64,000 nucleotides of DNA from assembly GCF_001955535.1 (NCBI RefSeq), contig NZ_MPVN01000004.1, positions 1 to 64,000 of the forward strand, given 5' to 3'. Source of the stretch: Paenibacillus sp. FSL H7-0326. GTDB taxonomy: Bacteria; Bacillota; Bacilli; Paenibacillales; Paenibacillaceae. Below are positions 24,049 through 31,592 of the stretch, one piece after another (position 1 is the stretch's first letter; each line of letters starts with the position of its first letter). The notes beneath the pieces are model-generated. The model was not told where the DNA came from. It searched no databases and was given only the letters and a program-made list of their open reading frames with translations. The translations under genes and the position numbers were made by a program.

Positions 24049-24730
24049 GTGAATGGATAGTACACGATTTGACGAGGTCTCAAGCAATCACATTCTAGAT
24101 ACAAGGAGTAGGTAGATCATCAAATTCCTATTCAAGTTCATGTTCCTATTCCATTCCCATTTGGTTCCGGCTTCTTATTCAAATGCATAGATCCCACGCC
24201 GCAGCTCGATTTTGAGCTATCACCTGCCACCAAGCTTACCTCTTAGGGAATTACATGAAGTTGTTCTATCATGCTGCTCTCCACTAATCATGTTTCCATT
24301 AATGAAATCTCTTTTATTAAGTTGACCATTGAATTCTAACTTGTTTAACAGAAAAAAGAGTAGATTAGGCATAAAACATGTTGTGTTTTCACAGCTTATT
24401 TTCATAGCGGAAAAGAAAGAAATAAATCGATTGTTGAATAGGATTATGCGAGAAAAAGTGATAGAATACATAGTAGAATGAATGGGAGATTCAGACATCA
24501 ATTTGATCTATGCCGTATTAAGATGTCGGAAGCTTCATTGTAGTTCAGTCTAATTTATATATCGTGAGTTTATGTCGTATAAAGTGGAGCATCAACACCA
24601 TTCCTACTGATATTTTTAACTTTTACATACTCAGGTGTAGCATGCTGTAATTCTTTGTATACCGAAGCGAAGGTAAGACAGTGAAGTGTCCTTCAAGGCA
24701 CTATTATGAAATTAGGTGGTAATATACGGA
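24035..24730. other. Non-coding stretch before noc
   Basis: About 700 bp, AT-rich, between the rsmG terminator and noc. A 93-codon minus-strand ORF (24220-24501) shows no recognisable domain, SD or synteny and is not annotated. No promoter with good spacing was found. Unusually long for this otherwise compact region. Confidence 0.5.
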
Positions 24731-25549
24731 ATGAAAGAACAATTTTCTAAGTTATTTGGTTTGACGGAACGCAGTGGCGGGGATGAAGTAAAGCAAATTC
24801 CGATTAACGAAATTGTCAGCAGCCCGTATCAGCCCCGTACGATTTTTGATGACGAGAAGATTGATGAGTTATGCCAGACGATCAAAACGCATGGTGTTAT
24901 TCAGCCGATTGTAGTCCGTATTCGTAATTCCCAGTATGAGATTATTGCGGGTGAGAGACGCTGGCGTGCCGTGAAGAAGCTTGGAATGGACCATATCCCA
25001 GCGATTGTAAGAGAATTTAATGATTCTCAAGCGGCTTCTATTGCTCTCATTGAAAATCTGCAGCGTGAAGGGCTTACGGCCATAGAAGAAGCAGTTGCCT
25101 ATCAGAAGTTAATAGACTTACATCAGCTGACACAAGAGAGCCTTGCACAGCGTCTTGGCAAAAGTCAGTCTACGATTGCGAACAAAATCAGACTCCTGCA
25201 GCTTCCTGAAGAAGTGAAGAATGCACTGATGGAACGTAAAATTTCGGAGCGACATGCCAGAGCTTTATTGTCACTGGATCAATTGGAGTTACAGCTGAAA
25301 TTGTTAGAAGAAATCATCAGCAAAGAGCTGAATGTTAAACAAACCGAAGCAAGAGTTGCTTTTTATAAGGAAGCGACAACCGTTAAGAAATCCAAACGTA
25401 TCTCCTTTACAAAGGATGTGCGACTGGCACTAAATACGATTCGCCAATCCATAGATATGGTGTCTGGTTCAGGCATGGATATTAAGACGAAGGAATCGGA
25501 TCATGAAGATCATTACGAAATTGTGATTCAGATCCCTAAACGCAAGTAA
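24731..25549 (+). CDS. noc: Nucleoid occlusion protein Noc
   Basis: 272 aa. ParB-family CTPase that binds Noc boxes and blocks division over the nucleoid. The N-terminal [15 protein letters not shown] is the amphipathic, membrane-binding helix. The ParB-type CTP site reads [10 protein letters not shown] (box II); the helix-turn-helix is around [20 protein letters not shown]. Distinguished from Spo0J by the N-terminal helix and by its place just upstream of soj. ATG at 24731 gives the family N terminus; the GTG at 24716 overlaps the only SD-like AGGTGG (24714-24719) and would add five residues. Confidence 0.93.
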
Positions 25550-25585: not shown

Positions 25586-25742
25586 AGATAGCAGAGTAGA
25601 GTAGAAGGCTTACTGAGTTTGAGACTTTTGTCTGCAAATCTAGTATGAAATGACAAACTTACAAATGAAGTGGTCCAGGCTATCTATCTGAATCATGTAT
25701 CTCATACCCCAAGGAATGACTTCTATATTTGAGGTGAACGAA

Positions 25743-26504
25743 GTGTCGAAGATTATTGCCGTAGCAAACCAAAAGGGCGGAGTAGGGAAGACCACGACTT
25801 CTGTCAATTTGGGCGCGGGAATGGCCTCGTTAGGTAAACGAGTGCTTCTCGTAGATATAGATCCCCAAGGGAATACAACCAGCGGAGTTGGTATTAACAA
25901 AGCAGATGTAGCTCATTGCATTTATGATGTGCTTATTGAAGAGATTCATCCTAGAGAAGCGATAGTCGAGACAAGTATTCAAGGCCTGCATATTATTCCA
26001 GCGACAATCCAGCTTGCAGGCGCAGAAATTGAGCTTGTATCAACGATATCGCGTGAAGTCAGACTTAAGAAATCACTGCAGCTCGTTAAGGACGAGTATG
26101 ATTATATCCTCATTGATTGCCCTCCATCCTTGGGCATGCTCACCATTAATTCGTTAACAGCTTCCGATTCGGTCATTATCCCTATTCAGTGCGAGTACTA
26201 TGCGCTGGAGGGATTGAGTCAGCTGTTAAACACCATTCGCCTTGTACAAAAGCACTTGAATACCTCACTGCAAATTGAAGGTGTCTTATTGACGATGTTC
26301 GATGCACGTACTAATCTAGGTATACAAGTGATTGAAGAAGTGAAAAAGTACTTTCAACAGAAAGTATACCAGACAATTATTCCGAGAAATGTACGTCTGA
26401 GTGAAGCTCCATCACATGGACAATCCATTATTACTTATGACCCTCGTTCCAGAGGAGCTGAAGTATATTTAGAGTTGGCAAAGGAAGTGATCTCATATGA
26501 GTAA
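25743..26504 (+). CDS. soj: Chromosome partitioning ATPase Soj (ParA)
   Basis: 253 aa, the same length as B. subtilis Soj. Deviant Walker A KGGVGKTT at residues 11-18, Walker B-type LIDCPPSLGMLT, and ANQKGG start are ParA hallmarks. Binds DNA as an ATP dimer, is regulated by Spo0J and controls DnaA activity. GAGGTG (25731-25736) is 6 nt before GTG at 25743; an upstream in-frame ATG (25695) lacks an SD. Overlaps spo0J by 8 bp, so translation is coupled. Confidence 0.97.
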   Translation: MSKIIAVANQKGGVGKTTTSVNLGAGMASLGKRVLLVDIDPQGNTTSGVGINKADVAHCIYDVLIEEIHPREAIVETSIQGLHIIPATIQLAGAEIELVSTISREVRLKKSLQLVKDEYDYILIDCPPSLGMLTINSLTASDSVIIPIQCEYYALEGLSQLLNTIRLVQKHLNTSLQIEGVLLTMFDARTNLGIQVIEEVKKYFQQKVYQTIIPRNVRLSEAPSHGQSIITYDPRSRGAEVYLELAKEVISYE

Positions 26505-27345
26505 GCGTTTGGGTAAAGGCTTGGATGCACTTATACCTTCGCTTTCGATTAACGAAGATGACAAGATTGTGGAAATACCACTGAGCCAGCTGCGAGCAAA
26601 TCCATACCAACCTAGAAAAACGTTCGATGAAGATTCTATTCAAGAGTTAGCTGAGTCGATTCGACAGCATGGTGTAATTCAACCCATTATTGTACGAAGT
26701 GTACTGAAGGGCTATGAAATTATTGCAGGAGAACGTCGTTTTCGCGCATCCCAATTCTGTGGCAAATCTACCATACCTGCGGTCGTAAGAAATTTTACGG
26801 AACAACAGGTCATGGAGATTGCTCTGATCGAGAATTTACAACGAGAAAACTTGAATGCGATGGAGGTAGCTGTTGCATACCAAGGGCTGATGGATCAATT
26901 TTCTCTCACCCAAGAAGAGTTATCGATGAAGGTAGGTAAATCAAGATCCCATATCGCCAATTTTTTACGATTGCTCGCGTTGCCTGAGGAAGTAAAGGAG
27001 CATGTTTCACGTGGAACATTATCCATGGGACATGCGAGAGCTATTGTGGGAATCAAGGAGCAAAAGGTTGTTAAAGAATTGGCAAAGCAATGCATCCAGC
27101 AACAGTGGAGTGTACGGGAGCTAGAAGAAGCCGTACAACAATTGGATCGCAAGAATGAAGATCAAAAGGCAAAGGTAAAACAGAAAAAGAGAGATCCATA
27201 TATTGAAAATGTAGAAGAAAGCCTGCGTAATCGATTCCAAACGACAGTAAAGATCAAAGCCAACAAAGACAAAGGTAAAATCGAACTGAACTATTACAGT
27301 CAACAAGATCTGGAAAGATTACTTGAGCTGTTGCAATTGCAGTAG
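26497..27345 (+). CDS. spo0J: Chromosome partitioning protein Spo0J (ParB)
   Basis: 282 aa, the same length as B. subtilis Spo0J. CTP-dependent DNA clamp loading at parS. N terminus LGKGLDALIPS is the Soj-stimulating peptide with basic residues; NPYQPRKTFD, the CTP-binding AGERRFRAS box, HTH (EELSMKVGKSRSHIANFLRL), and a basic linker plus C-terminal dimer domain follow. SD AAGGAAG lies within soj. The coding sequence itself contains a parS site at 27003. Confidence 0.97.
   Translation: MSKRLGKGLDALIPSLSINEDDKIVEIPLSQLRANPYQPRKTFDEDSIQELAESIRQHGVIQPIIVRSVLKGYEIIAGERRFRASQFCGKSTIPAVVRNFTEQQVMEIALIENLQRENLNAMEVAVAYQGLMDQFSLTQEELSMKVGKSRSHIANFLRLLALPEEVKEHVSRGTLSMGHARAIVGIKEQKVVKELAKQCIQQQWSVRELEEAVQQLDRKNEDQKAKVKQKKRDPYIENVEESLRNRFQTTVKIKANKDKGKIELNYYSQQDLERLLELLQLQ
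27003..27018. other. parS: parS site inside spo0J
   Basis: TGTTTCACGTGGAACA; its reverse complement TGTTCCACGTGAAACA fits the consensus TGTTNCACGTGAAACA exactly. B. subtilis also has a parS within spo0J. It encodes part of HVSRGTL in the protein. Confidence 0.93.
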
Positions 27346-27465: not shown

Positions 27466-28629
27466 ATGAAGGGGAACAGAGAAGGTATCGTCTATTTAGA
27501 CCATGCTGCCACGTCTTGGCCGAAGCCGGAATCAGTGAAAGAAGCGATGCTGCAGGCGATGGACATCGCAGGGGCCAACCCAGGTCGGGGAAGCCATTCT
27601 ATGGATGTACAAGCCAGCAGAGTATTATTTAATACGAGAAGGAAACTGGCAGAGTTGTTCCATATTCATAACCCGAATGATATTGTGTATACTTTTAACA
27701 CAACACTTGCCTTAAATATGGCGATCAAGGGAATTGTGAATTCAGGGGATCATATCATTACCACGATGATGGAGCATAATTCTGTCCGAAGACCGATCGA
27801 GTATCTGAAAACACACAAGCAGGTAGAAGTAGACTATCTGCCTCTTGATGATCAGGGACAAATCTCCATTTCCATGTTAGAACAAACCATTCGACATCGT
27901 ACGAAGCTGATCGTTGTATCCCATAGCTCGAATCTATTAGGAAGTATTCTTCCCCTTGAAGAGATAGGACGAATAGCTAGGAAACATCAAATTCACTTTC
28001 TTGTCGACGCTGCGCAAAGCGCTGGAGTTCTAGATATTGATGTGGAACGAATGAGTATAGATATGCTGGCTTTTCCTGGGCATAAAGGATTGCTCGGTCC
28101 GCAAGGTACCGGAGGGCTATACATTCATCCCTCGATTGATTTAGAGCCCTTGATCCATGGTGGAACCGGAAGTCAATCGGAAGCGATTGATCAACCAACC
28201 GTAAGACCGGACCGTTACGAATCGGGGACCCCCAATACGATCGGTGTTGCTGGATTAGGTGCAGGTGTAGATTATGTACTGGAGATGACGACGGAGCAAA
28301 TCTATCAGCATGAATGGAAACTAACACAGCTGCTAATGGAGGGTTTAGGTACAATTCCTGGTATTCAGACGCTGGGTCCAGACCTGGGAGAACCGAGAAG
28401 TGGACTTGTTGCATTCTATAGTGAGAAGATAGATGCTGCAGAGCTTGCCTTTACATTAGATAGGCAGTTCGGTATTGCAGTTCGTGCAGGGTATCATTGT
28501 ACTCCACTTGCCCATGAAAGCGCAGGTACAGCGAAGCAAGGTGCAGTCAGGGCTAGTTTTGGTGTAAACTCTAATGAGAGAGAAGTGGCCATATTGCTTG
28601 CTGCTGTTCGTGAGCTGGCGAATAGGTAA
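27466..28629 (+). CDS. Cysteine desulfurase-family class V aminotransferase
   Basis: 387 aa PLP enzyme. LDHAATSWPKPE at the N terminus, D181 in VDAAQSAG, PLP-lysine K207 in AFPGHKGLLGPQG, and the catalytic Cys345 in RAGYHCTPLAH, equivalent to the SufS-type active-site cysteine. All residues for mobilising sulfur (or selenium) from cysteine (or selenocysteine) are present. It resembles the EF2568-type subfamily seen with orphan selenium-handling genes more than IscS or SufS; that is from memory of the family. No suf/isc genes adjoin. AGGGAGGAATGACAT precedes ATG. 120 bp after spo0J. A DUF3343 putative Se/S carrier lies 1.2 kb downstream. Confidence 0.85.
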   Translation: MKGNREGIVYLDHAATSWPKPESVKEAMLQAMDIAGANPGRGSHSMDVQASRVLFNTRRKLAELFHIHNPNDIVYTFNTTLALNMAIKGIVNSGDHIITTMMEHNSVRRPIEYLKTHKQVEVDYLPLDDQGQISISMLEQTIRHRTKLIVVSHSSNLLGSILPLEEIGRIARKHQIHFLVDAAQSAGVLDIDVERMSIDMLAFPGHKGLLGPQGTGGLYIHPSIDLEPLIHGGTGSQSEAIDQPTVRPDRYESGTPNTIGVAGLGAGVDYVLEMTTEQIYQHEWKLTQLLMEGLGTIPGIQTLGPDLGEPRSGLVAFYSEKIDAAELAFTLDRQFGIAVRAGYHCTPLAHESAGTAKQGAVRASFGVNSNEREVAILLAAVRELANR

Positions 28630-28691
28630 GTAAGGATTCTGCATGAGTCCCAAAAGAACAATGTAAAAGACGTTAGGAGTAGGAGCAATAA

Positions 28692-29192
28692 ATGACAGAA
28701 ATGAATGAGCTGATTCTGGAACAACTGCCTTTGATTGTGTTTGGGATTGTATTGGTGCTGATCATTTTATTGATCATGTTGATTGTGCAGACAGCTAAAG
28801 TCAGTAAGCTGCGCAAAAATTACAACAAGTTTATGTCCAGTACGGGCGTAGAAGATTTGGAGTCCCTACTATTGAACCTGAAGGTGCAGATGGATGCGAT
28901 TGAGGACGAGCAAGGTGCGAATAAAGACATGGTTGCCAGAATGAATAAAAAACTTGATCGTATTCAAGGAAAAATGGGTATTAAACGTTATAATGCTTAT
29001 GGTGACCGTGGAGCCGATCTGAGTTTTTCCATTGCTATGCTGAACGAGAAAGAGGATGGGCTTGTCCTGACTGGACTCTACAATAGAGATGGCTCCTACG
29101 TATATGCCAAGCCCCTGCAAGGGGGAGAGTCCACATATACGCTCTCAAACGAAGAGAAGGAAGCCATTACTCTTGCACGGCAAGCAGAGTAG
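28692..29192 (+). CDS. DUF4446 family membrane protein
   Basis: 166 aa. One N-terminal transmembrane helix (about residues 13-33), a probable coiled coil (40-95), then a soluble domain with SFSIAMLNEKEDGLVLTGLY and SYVYAKPL, the pattern of DUF4446 proteins found near parB in Bacillota. Function unknown. AGGAGTAGGAG precedes ATG. Its 3' end overlaps the convergent yyaC by 26 bp. Confidence 0.8.
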   Translation: MTEMNELILEQLPLIVFGIVLVLIILLIMLIVQTAKVSKLRKNYNKFMSSTGVEDLESLLLNLKVQMDAIEDEQGANKDMVARMNKKLDRIQGKMGIKRYNAYGDRGADLSFSIAMLNEKEDGLVLTGLYNRDGSYVYAKPLQGGESTYTLSNEEKEAITLARQAE

Positions 29193-29772
29193 AACGATTA
29201 TGCCATTCTACTAGCGCAGCATACAGGCTGTGTGCAATGATGTTGGACATCCGGACAACAAGACTTAGCCGAGTATTCTGCAGAACGAAATATTCCATGA
29301 AGCCGCCGACATTGACGATCCCTGTTAAGTGGATATCGCCTACCGGCGGCAGTTCTTTATTTACACCTGCTCCTGGTTTAAGCGGACCTGACGCAACCTG
29401 AATGCAGCCCACACTGGAGGCTTGACCTAAACAGGCGTCAATCCCGATAATATAGGGATCTGTGTGCTTGCTGTATATCATTGTGAGCGTATCCTGAAGA
29501 TTCATGGCGTGAACCGGATCTTCCAGCGTCCCATAGAGATGGAAGAAAGGACTGTTATGCTCGGATAATGCAGTTCCAACAAGTGGGCCCAGGCAGTCGC
29601 CTGTAGACCGGTCGGTGCCAATGCATACGATAACGATCTCTTTGTGATTAGGTGCCTCAAACAGGTGAAATAATAAACGATGAATAATAGCTGAATGTAC
29701 TCCCGGATCGGTATGCTGTAGCTTTAAACCAGGCATGTCCTGTAAATTTATCGCTTTTGGAATCCGATTCAT
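29167..29772 (-). CDS. yyaC: YyaC family spore protein (DUF1256, GPR-like fold)
   Basis: 201 aa. IVCIGTDRSTGDCLGPLVGT and IIGIDACLGQASSVG are the characteristic segments of YyaC, related to the germination protease GPR; PVGDIHLTGIVNVGGFMEYF is also conserved. Present only in spore formers; B. subtilis yyaC is a forespore gene. Sits in its conserved place after spo0J. ATG follows AAAGGAAG on the minus strand. A possible forespore sigma promoter lies upstream (29812-29841). One of few minus-strand genes on the right arm. Confidence 0.92.
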   Translation of the reverse strand: MNRIPKAINLQDMPGLKLQHTDPGVHSAIIHRLLFHLFEAPNHKEIVIVCIGTDRSTGDCLGPLVGTALSEHNSPFFHLYGTLEDPVHAMNLQDTLTMIYSKHTDPYIIGIDACLGQASSVGCIQVASGPLKPGAGVNKELPPVGDIHLTGIVNVGGFMEYFVLQNTRLSLVVRMSNIIAHSLYAALVEWHNRSTLLAVQE

Positions 29773-29811
29773 AGCGCACTATCTTCCTTTCGTGCTTGGA
29801 TTAGTAGTAAA

Positions 29812-29841
29812 TAGTATATGGAAGAAGCTTGGTTTTTATAC
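29812..29841 (-). promoter_or_regulatory. Possible forespore (sigma F/G) promoter of yyaC
   Basis: Minus strand GTATA (29841-29837), 16 bp, then CATATACTA (29820-29812). This loosely fits sigma G/F promoters; the spacing and -10 are imperfect. Confidence 0.3.
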
Positions 29842-29877
29842 TTCGTACCATTCGTATTGATAGACTGGAGGTAGAGG

Positions 29878-30153
29878 ATGGAGTTGTGGCTGACCATCGC
29901 ATTTGATTCAACGCAGCAGGCACTTCGCGCAGAAATGCTGCTCGACTATGCAGGAATTGATATCGATACCTATCCAACGCCGAAGGAAATAACGGCAGGC
30001 TGCGCACTGTCCATCCAGTTTCCATCGGAGGATTTAAGACAAGTCCATCAAATCATCGTGAGTGAAAAAGTGGAGATTCGCGGCATCTATGAAAAAAAAG
30101 GTGCTGAGTATATACAAGTCGATTGTTGTGAACACGAAGGGGAGGAGTATTAA
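29878..30153 (+). CDS. DUF3343 protein, putative Se/S carrier
   Basis: 91 aa. Matches the DUF3343 (putative Se/S carrier) family: N-terminal FDSTQQALRAEMLLDYAGI, PTPKEITAGCALSIQF with the conserved Cys42, and EIRGIYEKKG near the C terminus. A second thiol pair, Cys83-Cys84, lies near the end. Such proteins are thought to carry activated selenium or sulfur. ATG follows GGAGGTAGAGG. Overlaps the next gene by 1 bp (TAATG). Same strand as the desulfurase-family gene 1.2 kb upstream. Confidence 0.82.
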   Translation: MELWLTIAFDSTQQALRAEMLLDYAGIDIDTYPTPKEITAGCALSIQFPSEDLRQVHQIIVSEKVEIRGIYEKKGAEYIQVDCCEHEGEEY

Positions 30154-31244
30154 TGTGGTTTGAAGCATCAGGAACGACTCCTGAAACGGAAACAAATGAA
30201 ACACCGGAAGAGACTTCTGGAACGGCCGGCACAGCCCCGACGGAGGAAACTACCGATACCGGAACAGATACAGGAGGAACCGCTCCTTATCCATCGGCTA
30301 CCCCCGATGACGGAACACTCACTGAAAATGTAGGGGAAGCCGTTCAAGGGACCGTTGATGAAGCCAAGCGTTTAAGTGATGTCTTCTGGAATTGGGTCAC
30401 GGACACCAATATGTGGATTCATTACGCAGGAATTGCACTACAGATCATTATTGTATTTATTCTGACCCGGATTGCGATTAAGGTGCTTCATAATGTCATT
30501 GATCGGTCGCTGCTGAATCGGCAGTCAGAGAGAAGAATCAGAATCAATAAAAGACGTGTAAACACAGTAGGCGAGCTGCTCAAAAATGTGGTATCTATCG
30601 TATGTAACTTCATTCTTGTACTCCTCATTTTATCTCAAATGGGTGTGAATCTCGGGCCTGTACTCGCCAGTGCTGGGGTACTCGGATTAGCGATCGGTTT
30701 CGGTGCGCAAAGCTTGGTCAAAGACATTATTACCGGATTCTTCATTATATTAGAGGATCAGTTCGCGGTGGGTGACGTTGTTCAATCAGGGACGCTGAAG
30801 GGAACAGTGGAGGTCATTGGTCTTCGAACGACGAAGATTGTTAGTTTTACAGGAGAAGTGCATATTATTCCTAATGGAACCATTACGACGGTAACCAACT
30901 ATTCGATGGCCAATTCCCGTGCGGTTGTGGATATCCCGATGAAAGGCGAGGAGCAGCTGGGAGAGAGCATGAGAATGGTGAAGGAAGCTGTTCAGAACCT
31001 GTCTGAGCGTAACAGCAATGTCTTAATGGTTCCGGAGGTGGTTGGCATACAATCCATGACAACCGCTGAATATGTAATTCGAGTAGTGGCGGAGTGTCTG
31101 CCCAATGCCAATCATGAAGTGGAACGTCTAATTAAAATGGATGTAAAAGAAGCACTGGAACATAAGGAGAGCGTAAGGCTTGCTGAACTAGAAGCCGCCG
31201 CAGCTACTGAAGATAATACGGGGGATGGTTCGAATGGAGCGTAA
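30153..31244 (+). CDS. MscS-family mechanosensitive channel
   Basis: 363 aa. Pore-lining helix and MscS signature: LVASAG-like VLASAGVLGLAIGFGAQSLV, then KDIITGFFIILEDQFAVGDVV and IPNGTITTVTNYS. About three TM helices (88-110, 143-163, 172-195) precede the cytoplasmic beta domain. Residues 5-75 form an unusual Thr/Glu/Gly-rich hydrophilic segment that is absent in the compact Bacillus YkuT; it has no signal peptide. AGGGGAGGAG inside the DUF3343 gene gives a strong SD, so the two are translationally coupled. Role: release of solutes on hypo-osmotic shock. Confidence 0.93.
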   Translation: MWFEASGTTPETETNETPEETSGTAGTAPTEETTDTGTDTGGTAPYPSATPDDGTLTENVGEAVQGTVDEAKRLSDVFWNWVTDTNMWIHYAGIALQIIIVFILTRIAIKVLHNVIDRSLLNRQSERRIRINKRRVNTVGELLKNVVSIVCNFILVLLILSQMGVNLGPVLASAGVLGLAIGFGAQSLVKDIITGFFIILEDQFAVGDVVQSGTLKGTVEVIGLRTTKIVSFTGEVHIIPNGTITTVTNYSMANSRAVVDIPMKGEEQLGESMRMVKEAVQNLSERNSNVLMVPEVVGIQSMTTAEYVIRVVAECLPNANHEVERLIKMDVKEALEHKESVRLAELEAAAATEDNTGDGSNGA

Positions 31245-31446
31245 AGTGTTTAATCTGGGGGACATCGTTCAGATGAAAAAGCCGCACCCTTGTGGAAGCA
31301 ACGAGATGGAAATTATTCGTATGGGCATGGATATCCGAATTAAGTGTGTAGGCTGTAAACATAGTGTACTTGTACCACGCGCTAAGTTTGAAAAAAATTT
31401 TAAGAAAGTGCTCCGCTCGGCTGAGGATCCGCAAGGGCAAGCGTAG
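31234..31446 (+). CDS. DUF951 family small protein
   Basis: 70 aa from the ATG at 31234 (an ATG at 31225 adds three residues). MERKVFNLGDIVQMKKPHPC, then GMDIRIKCVGCKHSVLVPR, is the DUF951 pattern; B. subtilis yyzM is the counterpart. Three cysteines (PHPC and CVGC) could bind a metal. Overlaps the end of the MscS gene by 11 bp. The function is unknown but the family is conserved downstream of spo0J in many Bacillota. Confidence 0.9.
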   Translation: MERKVFNLGDIVQMKKPHPCGSNEMEIIRMGMDIRIKCVGCKHSVLVPRAKFEKNFKKVLRSAEDPQGQA

Positions 31447-31500: not shown

Positions 31501-31592
31501 GGAAAGGTACCCAAGAGGTTATAAGGGGACTGACTCGAAATCAGTTAGGCGCCTTGCGGCGTGCGAGGGTTCGAATCCCTCTCTTTCCGCCA
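31501..31592 (+). tRNA. tRNA-Ser (anticodon CGA)
   Basis: 92 nt class II tRNA with long variable arm and encoded CCA. Acceptor stem GGAAAGG/TCTTTCC with discriminator G. Anticodon arm ACTGA-CTCGAAA-TCAGT gives anticodon CGA (codon UCG). T arm GAGGG-TTCGAAT-CCCTC. It has its own promoter and terminator. Confidence 0.96.

Follow-up and report, generated by a model that had tools for sequence, protein, structure and literature searches.

A cysteine desulfurase-like enzyme and a DUF3343 protein at the parB locus of Paenibacillus sp. FSL H7-0326: a candidate selD-independent sulfur relay

In several bacterial systems a cysteine desulfurase passes sulfur to a small partner protein, i.e., SufS to SufE or SufU, and CsdA to CsdE, and YrvO-MnmA and NifZ-ThiI of Bacillus are dedicated desulfurase pairs. 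The present analysis deals with a further candidate pair, an EF2568-family enzyme and a small DUF3343 protein (referred to as the carrier), which are encoded at the parB locus of Paenibacillus sp. FSL H7-0326 within a stretch of 64,000 nucleotides (assembly GCF_001955535.1, contig NZ_MPVN01000004.1, positions 1 to 64,000 of the forward strand), called the window in the following. The most similar sets have been described for selenium users. According to excerpts of PMC5322559, a link between the carrier and the selenocysteine lyase family was predicted in 2015 from gene neighborhoods in such organisms, the sulfur or selenium role of the carrier family is a prediction, and its cysteine is highly conserved. 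The same excerpts report that a selenium-specific branch of the carrier family was not found and that it may carry sulfur in some organisms, and they name yqeB/yqeC, selA/selB and ybbB as three SelD-dependent traits. Excerpts of PMC2276186 describe EF_2568 as a probable selenocysteine lyase, and the selenocysteine lyase SclA stems from later work that is known here via excerpts of PMC13188914. Among the titles found in the literature on parB or yyaC with cysteine desulfurase, on HydE with cysteine desulfurase, and on Paenibacillus selenium, none concerned the enzyme-carrier pair. The two genes are the following:

27466..28629, plus strand: EF2568-family (TIGR01977) cysteine desulfurase-like enzyme of 387 amino acids, dependent on pyridoxal phosphate (PLP), found by family scan, with K207 and C345 intact
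29878..30153, plus strand: small Se_S_carrier/DUF3343 (PF11823) protein of 91 amino acids with the conserved C42, found by family scan

The enzyme matched TIGR01977 over its full length with 465 bits (cut-off 377) and is thus a member of this family. Against the selenocysteine lyase model SclA (NF040779) it reached 363 bits, below the cut-off of 525. A first reading of the letters alone (the sequence-only reading) had proposed that the PLP lysine K207 and the catalytic Cys345 are kept. Both were indeed found at these positions, K207 in the motif PGHKG and C345 in the motif GYHC, and both, as well as H104 and H206, were present in each of 172 aligned sequences, a set that includes the window protein and also a few other desulfurases. 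The roles of the PLP lysine and of the catalytic cysteine are established for the superfamily. The closest solved relatives by sequence were SufS-type desulfurases, and two alignments to solved relatives revealed no long insert around the catalytic cysteine. The enzyme can probably strip sulfur from cysteine. In a PADLOC scan only the enzyme gave matches, namely to SspA and DndA, both of which are desulfurases. These matches were not taken as a sign of defence.

The carrier matched PF11823 with 76 bits over residues 7-72 (gathering cut-off 25), and the same family scan gave no match to the SufE and SufU families. C42, which corresponds to the conserved cysteine described for DUF3343 in excerpts of PMC5322559, was invariant in 29 of 29 diverse family members and in 55 of 55 aligned proteins. 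F9 and P35 were likewise invariant across the 29 diverse members. The protein shared 96% identity with the carrier of Paenibacillus sp. TCA20. An AlphaFold2 model built with 55 window-type sequences had a mean predicted local distance difference test score (pLDDT) of 86.9 and a predicted template modeling score (pTM) of 0.78. The predicted order is strand-helix-strand-strand-helix-strand-strand, a small ferredoxin-like fold, in which C42 would occupy the loop that joins strand 2 to strand 3 (44-49), immediately ahead of the latter. In the PDB the model matched a mixture of ferredoxin-like domains, among them ACT, PII-like and UreE C-terminal ones. Foldseek gave no match at E <= 0.001, and the best VIA-align Z was 8.0; TusA and SufE were not among the top 50 rows of either fold comparison, which carries no weight. 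Because the ferredoxin-like fold is very common, the predicted fold says nothing on function. The structural matches could nevertheless be taken to mean that the carrier is a sensor of the PII/ACT type, which would bind a ligand and tune the desulfurase or its acceptor. This is rather improbable: no Foldseek match passed the E threshold and the best Z was as given above, the fold is too widespread to serve as an argument, and an invariant single cysteine is more in keeping with thiol chemistry than with a binding site for a ligand. At other loci (L012, L030, L033, L018, L021, L036, L019) the carrier lies near genes for sulfur transport (Sulf_transp), URO-D-type proteins, 2-hydroxyglutaryl-CoA dehydratase and BcrAD-type ATPases.

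The sequence-only reading had paired the two proteins on the basis of their proximity and family roles and had proposed phylogenetic co-occurrence as a check. This check was positive. Two overlapping samples of 249 genomes each were used, one from the class and one from the phylum; the species in them are not independent, and the Fisher values are descriptive. In the class sample both genes were present in 65 genomes, the carrier only in one, the enzyme only in 42 and neither in 141, i.e., 65 of 66 carrier genomes also had the enzyme (three carrier matches below the cut-off, one in genome G249 and two in G410, were left out of this tally). The corresponding numbers for the phylum sample were 153, 3, 16 and 77, and thus the enzyme was present in 153 of 156 carrier genomes; here the enzyme set was defined by E <= 1e-90 (169 genomes, 166 of them over the cut-off). 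In the 82 phylum genomes without selD over the cut-off, with ten selD matches below it counted as negative, both genes were found in 14, the carrier only in two, the enzyme only in seven and neither in 59, i.e., the enzyme occurred in 14 of 16 genomes with the carrier versus 7 of 66 without it. The two genes were also close to one another. In the class sample, for which the enzyme list held the carrier genomes plus only some others, an enzyme gene was located within 10 kb of 66 of the 69 carrier genes. Among these 66 close pairs the same strand was seen in 65 and, counted separately, the carrier was downstream in 65. The median gap was 1714 bp at the 67 loci with both genes on one contig.

The main new lead, not found in print within the searches made, is that the carrier domain is fused to HydE or SelD in other bacteria. 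Carrier-HydE fusions were present in at least 11 of the 249 phylum genomes from seven family codes, with frames of 430-478 amino acids among the matches listed (loci L042-L047, L049-L051, L253, L254), mostly beside hydG or hydF and the EF2568 enzyme. In all 11 cases PF11823 was N-terminal, HydE (TIGR03956) scored over its cut-off behind the carrier domain (three were also scanned as proteins), and the frame was open and contained the carrier cysteine as well as the radical S-adenosylmethionine motif CxxxCxxC. The EF2568 enzyme gene was next to the fusion, or one gene (hydF) further, in eight of the 11 genomes, and six of these eight loci have parB in the same stretch, which places them at the locus known from the window; part of these neighborhoods comes from a comparison of 99 loci with a length of at least 6 kb. 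Three of the genomes (G080, G111, G211) have a second, unfused HydE and no selD. In a check of 20 large HydE frames (at least 393 amino acids) from other genomes, which did not extend to one 393-amino acid frame of G185, no carrier domain was found, while the same profile detected 11 of 11 fusions. A fusion with SelD (373.8 bits, cut-off 125) was found in G190, a fragmented draft of about 310 contigs (L048:4869-6164); it was the single case among the matches listed, and it lies directly 3' of an EF2568-like enzyme that scored 338 bits, below the cut-off of 377. As the carrier is fused to possible acceptor enzymes, mostly beside the supposed donor, the fusions would fit a carrier role. In literature on DUF3343, HydE and SelD fusions, which was covered mostly by titles, no mention of such fusions was found, and HydE does not occur in PMC5322559. 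If the fusions name the acceptors and the neighboring gene names the donor, a concrete test becomes available for a putative sulfur or selenium carrier family.

The surroundings of the pair were analyzed next. The gene order is noc, parA, parB, enzyme, DUF4446, yyaC, carrier, mscS, DUF951, rpsF, ssb, rpsR, with rpsF, ssb, rpsR and also parA named from the sequence. The neighboring features are:

24716..25549, plus strand: nucleoid occlusion protein Noc (TIGR04285), 371 bits versus a cut-off of 315
25695..26504, plus strand: ParA/Soj-like ATPase, assigned by sequence and gene order
26497..27345, plus strand: partition protein ParB, directly 5' of the enzyme gene, found by family scan
28692..29192, plus strand: DUF4446 protein, 62 bp 3' of the enzyme gene, found by family scan
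29167..29772, minus strand: yyaC (TIGR02841, spore protease YyaC), between enzyme and carrier, found by family scan
30153..31244, plus strand: MscS-type mechanosensitive channel, directly 3' of the carrier gene and a rival partner, found by family scan
31225..31446, plus strand: small DUF951 protein, found by family scan
31501-31592, plus strand: tRNA-Ser(CGA), just 3' of DUF951, the sole tRNA gene found in the window by the RNA-family scan

The placement of a DUF3343 protein with the conserved Cys42 1.2 kb downstream on the same strand was confirmed, with a gap of 1.25 kb, and suf or isc genes do not adjoin at the parB locus, as had been proposed. The two genes do not form one simple operon, because yyaC between them has the opposite orientation. 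The carrier heads a rightward gene run of its own with mscS and DUF951, and the mscS open reading frame begins on the final base of the carrier gene. Scans for promoters and terminators yielded site numbers no higher than in shuffled sequence.

To this layout, the best 80 of 376 relatives were compared (named loci), nearly all of them from Paenibacillus or Cohnella. The pair was kept in 79 of 80, the exception being a contig of 5.7 kb, with gaps of 789-1951 bp and the same strand in 79 of 79. The adjacency recurs at 79 of 80 named loci and at 66 of 69 class carrier loci, which speaks against chance. It also persisted where a neighbor was not found at the locus, i.e., yyaC in P. hunanensis and P. 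wulumuqiensis, mscS in two Chengkuizengella and P. plantiphilus, and DUF4446 in the same two Chengkuizengella. DUF4446 was kept at 78 and DUF951 at 80 of the 80 named loci at parB. The record with locus L175, which is Paenibacillus-like, is titled Neobacillus mesonae MER 107, perhaps wrongly. In other families, unnamed genes lie between yyaC and DUF951, and six of them were scanned against Pfam: one was a weak Spore_permease match (L143), one was Colicin_V (L127), and four gave no Pfam match (L106, L130, L136, L125).

In the class, parB was followed by the enzyme, with unlabelled frames below 130 amino acids skipped, at 48 of 48 parB loci, which had been chosen for the presence of enzyme or carrier. 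The carrier was also present in 28 and not in the stretch in 20, with the carrier of L114 lying beyond its stretch. Five loci whose stretch lacks ParB (L115, L117-L120) as well as L054, L055 (genome of L124) and L057 were excluded. Of the two genes, it is therefore the enzyme that is more constantly present at parB. In a tree of the enzymes, 49 class parB-linked sequences grouped together with a support of 90, and rows lacking the carrier were scattered within this group. The tree was made with a quick method, with SH-aLRT support only and a long-branch warning, and was used solely for carrier presence, which appears to change repeatedly across it.

Could the pair simply be a remnant of gene order? 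It might be an old parB block in which the carrier works with MscS and DUF951 and is unrelated to the enzyme. This would agree with the presence of mscS at 76 of the 80 named loci, where it often overlaps the carrier end or starts within tens of bases of it, and with the occurrence of a carrier-mscS-DUF951 set away from parB at two of the best 30 phylum loci (L023, L035/L148). However, of the four named loci without mscS three keep carrier and enzyme, the fourth being a short contig, and away from parB the carrier is also found beside the enzyme (8 of the best 30 phylum matches). Of the 80 loci, the 74 in which all nine genes were present entered a co-evolution analysis with distance matrices, from which the signal shared with ParA, Noc and ParB was removed. 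The partial distance correlation of enzyme and carrier was 0.39, the largest of the 15 pairs among six genes, and none of 500 permutations was as high; for DUF4446-YyaC it was 0.30 and for carrier-MscS 0.07. The latter value, compared with 0.39, argues against mscS as the main partner of the carrier. The fusions to HydE and SelD also point to sulfur or selenium chemistry. A coupling by gene order alone is therefore unlikely. The co-evolution signal is soft evidence, but together with co-occurrence, adjacency and fusions it carries the pairing beyond proximity and supports that the two families belong together.

The next question was the cargo. The sequence-only reading had proposed a dedicated thiol or selenium transfer step, and had asked for selD elsewhere in the genome. 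No selD was found in the window genome (99.97% complete; one carrier and one enzyme over the cut-offs); there were only two weak matches of 27.9 and 22 bits versus a cut-off of 125. Of the 65 class genomes with both genes, 37 had no selD, including 19 of 22 from the window's own family. In the class sample selD was present in 28 of 66 carrier genomes and in 53 of 107 enzyme genomes, so that the link between carrier and enzyme was far tighter. In the selD-bearing relative G402, selD and the pair are located on different contigs. Since the pair link holds in genomes without selD, selD-linked selenium use is not the common denominator at this locus. At one locus away from parB (L023) the carrier-mscS-DUF951 set lies downstream of selD.

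A selenium relay, in which the enzyme would be a selenocysteine lyase and the carrier would bring selenide to a selenium user, is quite unlikely for the window genome, given the missing selD, the score below the SclA cut-off, the many pair genomes of the class that lack selD, and the separate contigs in G402. It would be in accord with the tracking of selD by both families in the phylum sample (selD in 140 of 156 carrier genomes) and, to a lesser degree, in the class sample, with the carrier-SelD fusion directly after an EF2568-like enzyme in G190, and with what excerpts of PMC5322559 and PMC2276186 predict for EF2568 and DUF3343 where selD is present. Given the phylum-wide association of both families with selD, many other species may use the pair for selenium. 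Thus, the proposed pairing of the two families is supported, whereas selenium as cargo in the window genome is not supported. If the sulfur relay holds, selenium metabolism should not be annotated from the pair when selD is missing.

The same reading had considered a link to sporulation, which is not supported. A sporulation-specific thiol step tied to yyaC could explain why yyaC sits between the two genes, and enzyme and carrier do co-occur with spoIVA: in the class sample, spoIVA (E <= 1e-30) was present in 177 of 249 genomes, in 104 of 107 enzyme genomes versus 73 of 142 others, and in 63 of 66 carrier genomes versus 114 of 183 others. The three enzyme genomes without spoIVA were G099, G224 and G480. 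Yet yyaC is on the opposite strand, and P. hunanensis and P. wulumuqiensis keep the pair without yyaC at the locus. In G099, from the same family as the window genome, yyaC is missing at the locus and spoIVA from the whole genome, and the pair is retained at parB. In addition, 72 of the 177 spoIVA genomes have neither enzyme nor carrier. The pair is therefore common in spore-formers but can outlive sporulation genes, and a sporulation-specific step is highly improbable.

Taken together, a selD-independent sulfur relay is regarded as the best account of the pair, held with slightly more belief than doubt. With the help of PLP on K207, the enzyme would draw sulfur from cysteine and bind it as a persulfide on C345. 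The carrier would accept the sulfur on C42 and would hand it on to an acceptor. The families, residues, co-occurrence, adjacency, co-evolution signal and fusions are observations, whereas we infer the chemistry of the persulfide, which way it is transferred, and that the cargo here is sulfur and not selenium. In other bacteria the acceptor would be visible in the fused HydE or SelD, acceptor-type proteins that carry the carrier domain themselves and often adjoin the enzyme gene. At least three further desulfurases of the window genome have partner genes next to them (NCBIfam names), i.e., one in sufB-sufU-sufS-sufD, an IscS-subfamily desulfurase beside mnmA, and another beside thiI. Because the desulfurases beside mnmA and thiI exist separately, the acceptor of the pair should be a different one. 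Enzyme and carrier would then be a further sulfur route of Paenibacillus beside three desulfurase-acceptor systems, and in some anaerobes hydrogenase cofactor assembly would use a dedicated sulfur delivery domain.

Several observations weigh against the sulfur relay. The phylum-wide link to selD is strong, with the carrier in 140 and the enzyme in 148 of 167 selD genomes. The enzyme lacks the carrier in 42 of 107 enzyme-bearing class genomes and, within the stretch, at 20 of 48 class parB loci, and thus it does not need the carrier everywhere. The enzyme lies within 1.5 kb in only 8 of the best 30 phylum carrier matches, some of whose stretches stop at a contig end, and three of the 11 HydE fusions (G137, G004, G047) have no enzyme in the stretch read. 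At the locus itself, the immediate neighbor of the carrier is mscS and not the enzyme, and with yyaC interposed on the other strand co-transcription of the pair would not be simple. Partial correlations were also seen for enzyme-MscS (0.26, 0 of 500 permutations) and carrier-YyaC (0.22, 2 of 500 permutations). Finally, the predicted fold of the carrier is a very common one, and biochemistry for the PF11823 family was not found in the literature searched.

A broader scheme is put forward tentatively, as a possibility that more probably fails than holds. In this scheme DUF3343 would be a general carrier that is supplied with sulfur by EF2568-type desulfurases and passes it to enzymes that build cofactors. 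Its fusion to HydE would belong to the making of the hydrogenase cluster, and its fusion to SelD to the use of selenium. Enzyme and carrier would be an old part of the parB neighborhood, where larEBC or hydGEF can also lie, and they would serve a sulfur-dependent pathway in Paenibacillus. Genes for the nickel-pincer cofactor were seen within about 6 kb of the enzyme at six loci (L114, L116, L157, L172, L253, L255), of which five are parB loci. All six had larC, five had larB and four had larE; the gene names were checked with NCBIfam at two of the loci, L253 and L255. LarE is a sulfur-inserting enzyme.

Compared with known systems, the pair shares the TIGR01977 enzyme, the PF11823 carrier and the location of the carrier near the enzyme with the sets of EF2568 or SclA, DUF3343 and YedF described in excerpts of PMC5322559, PMC2276186 and PMC13188914. 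In those excerpts the EF2568/DUF3343 sets are tied to selD and selenium, whereas the window genome has no selD, an enzyme score below the SclA cut-off, and a location of the pair at parB. In the HydE proteins of [FeFe]-hydrogenase maturation (TIGR03956) the carrier is in some cases the N-terminal domain, with HydG or HydF and the enzyme nearby; in contrast to these genomes, the window genome has no HydE over the cut-off (best match 45.1 bits versus 254.6). With SufS-SufE/SufU and CsdA-CsdE the pair has in common that the enzyme is SufS-like and would pass sulfur to a small partner. It differs from SufS-SufE/SufU in that the partner is a PF11823 protein, that Fe-S scaffold genes do not adjoin, and that SufS and SufU are encoded elsewhere in the genome. 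The window genome also differs from the YrvO-MnmA and NifZ-ThiI arrangement by its separate desulfurases beside mnmA and thiI, but the pair would resemble these two systems in being a desulfurase set aside for one acceptor.

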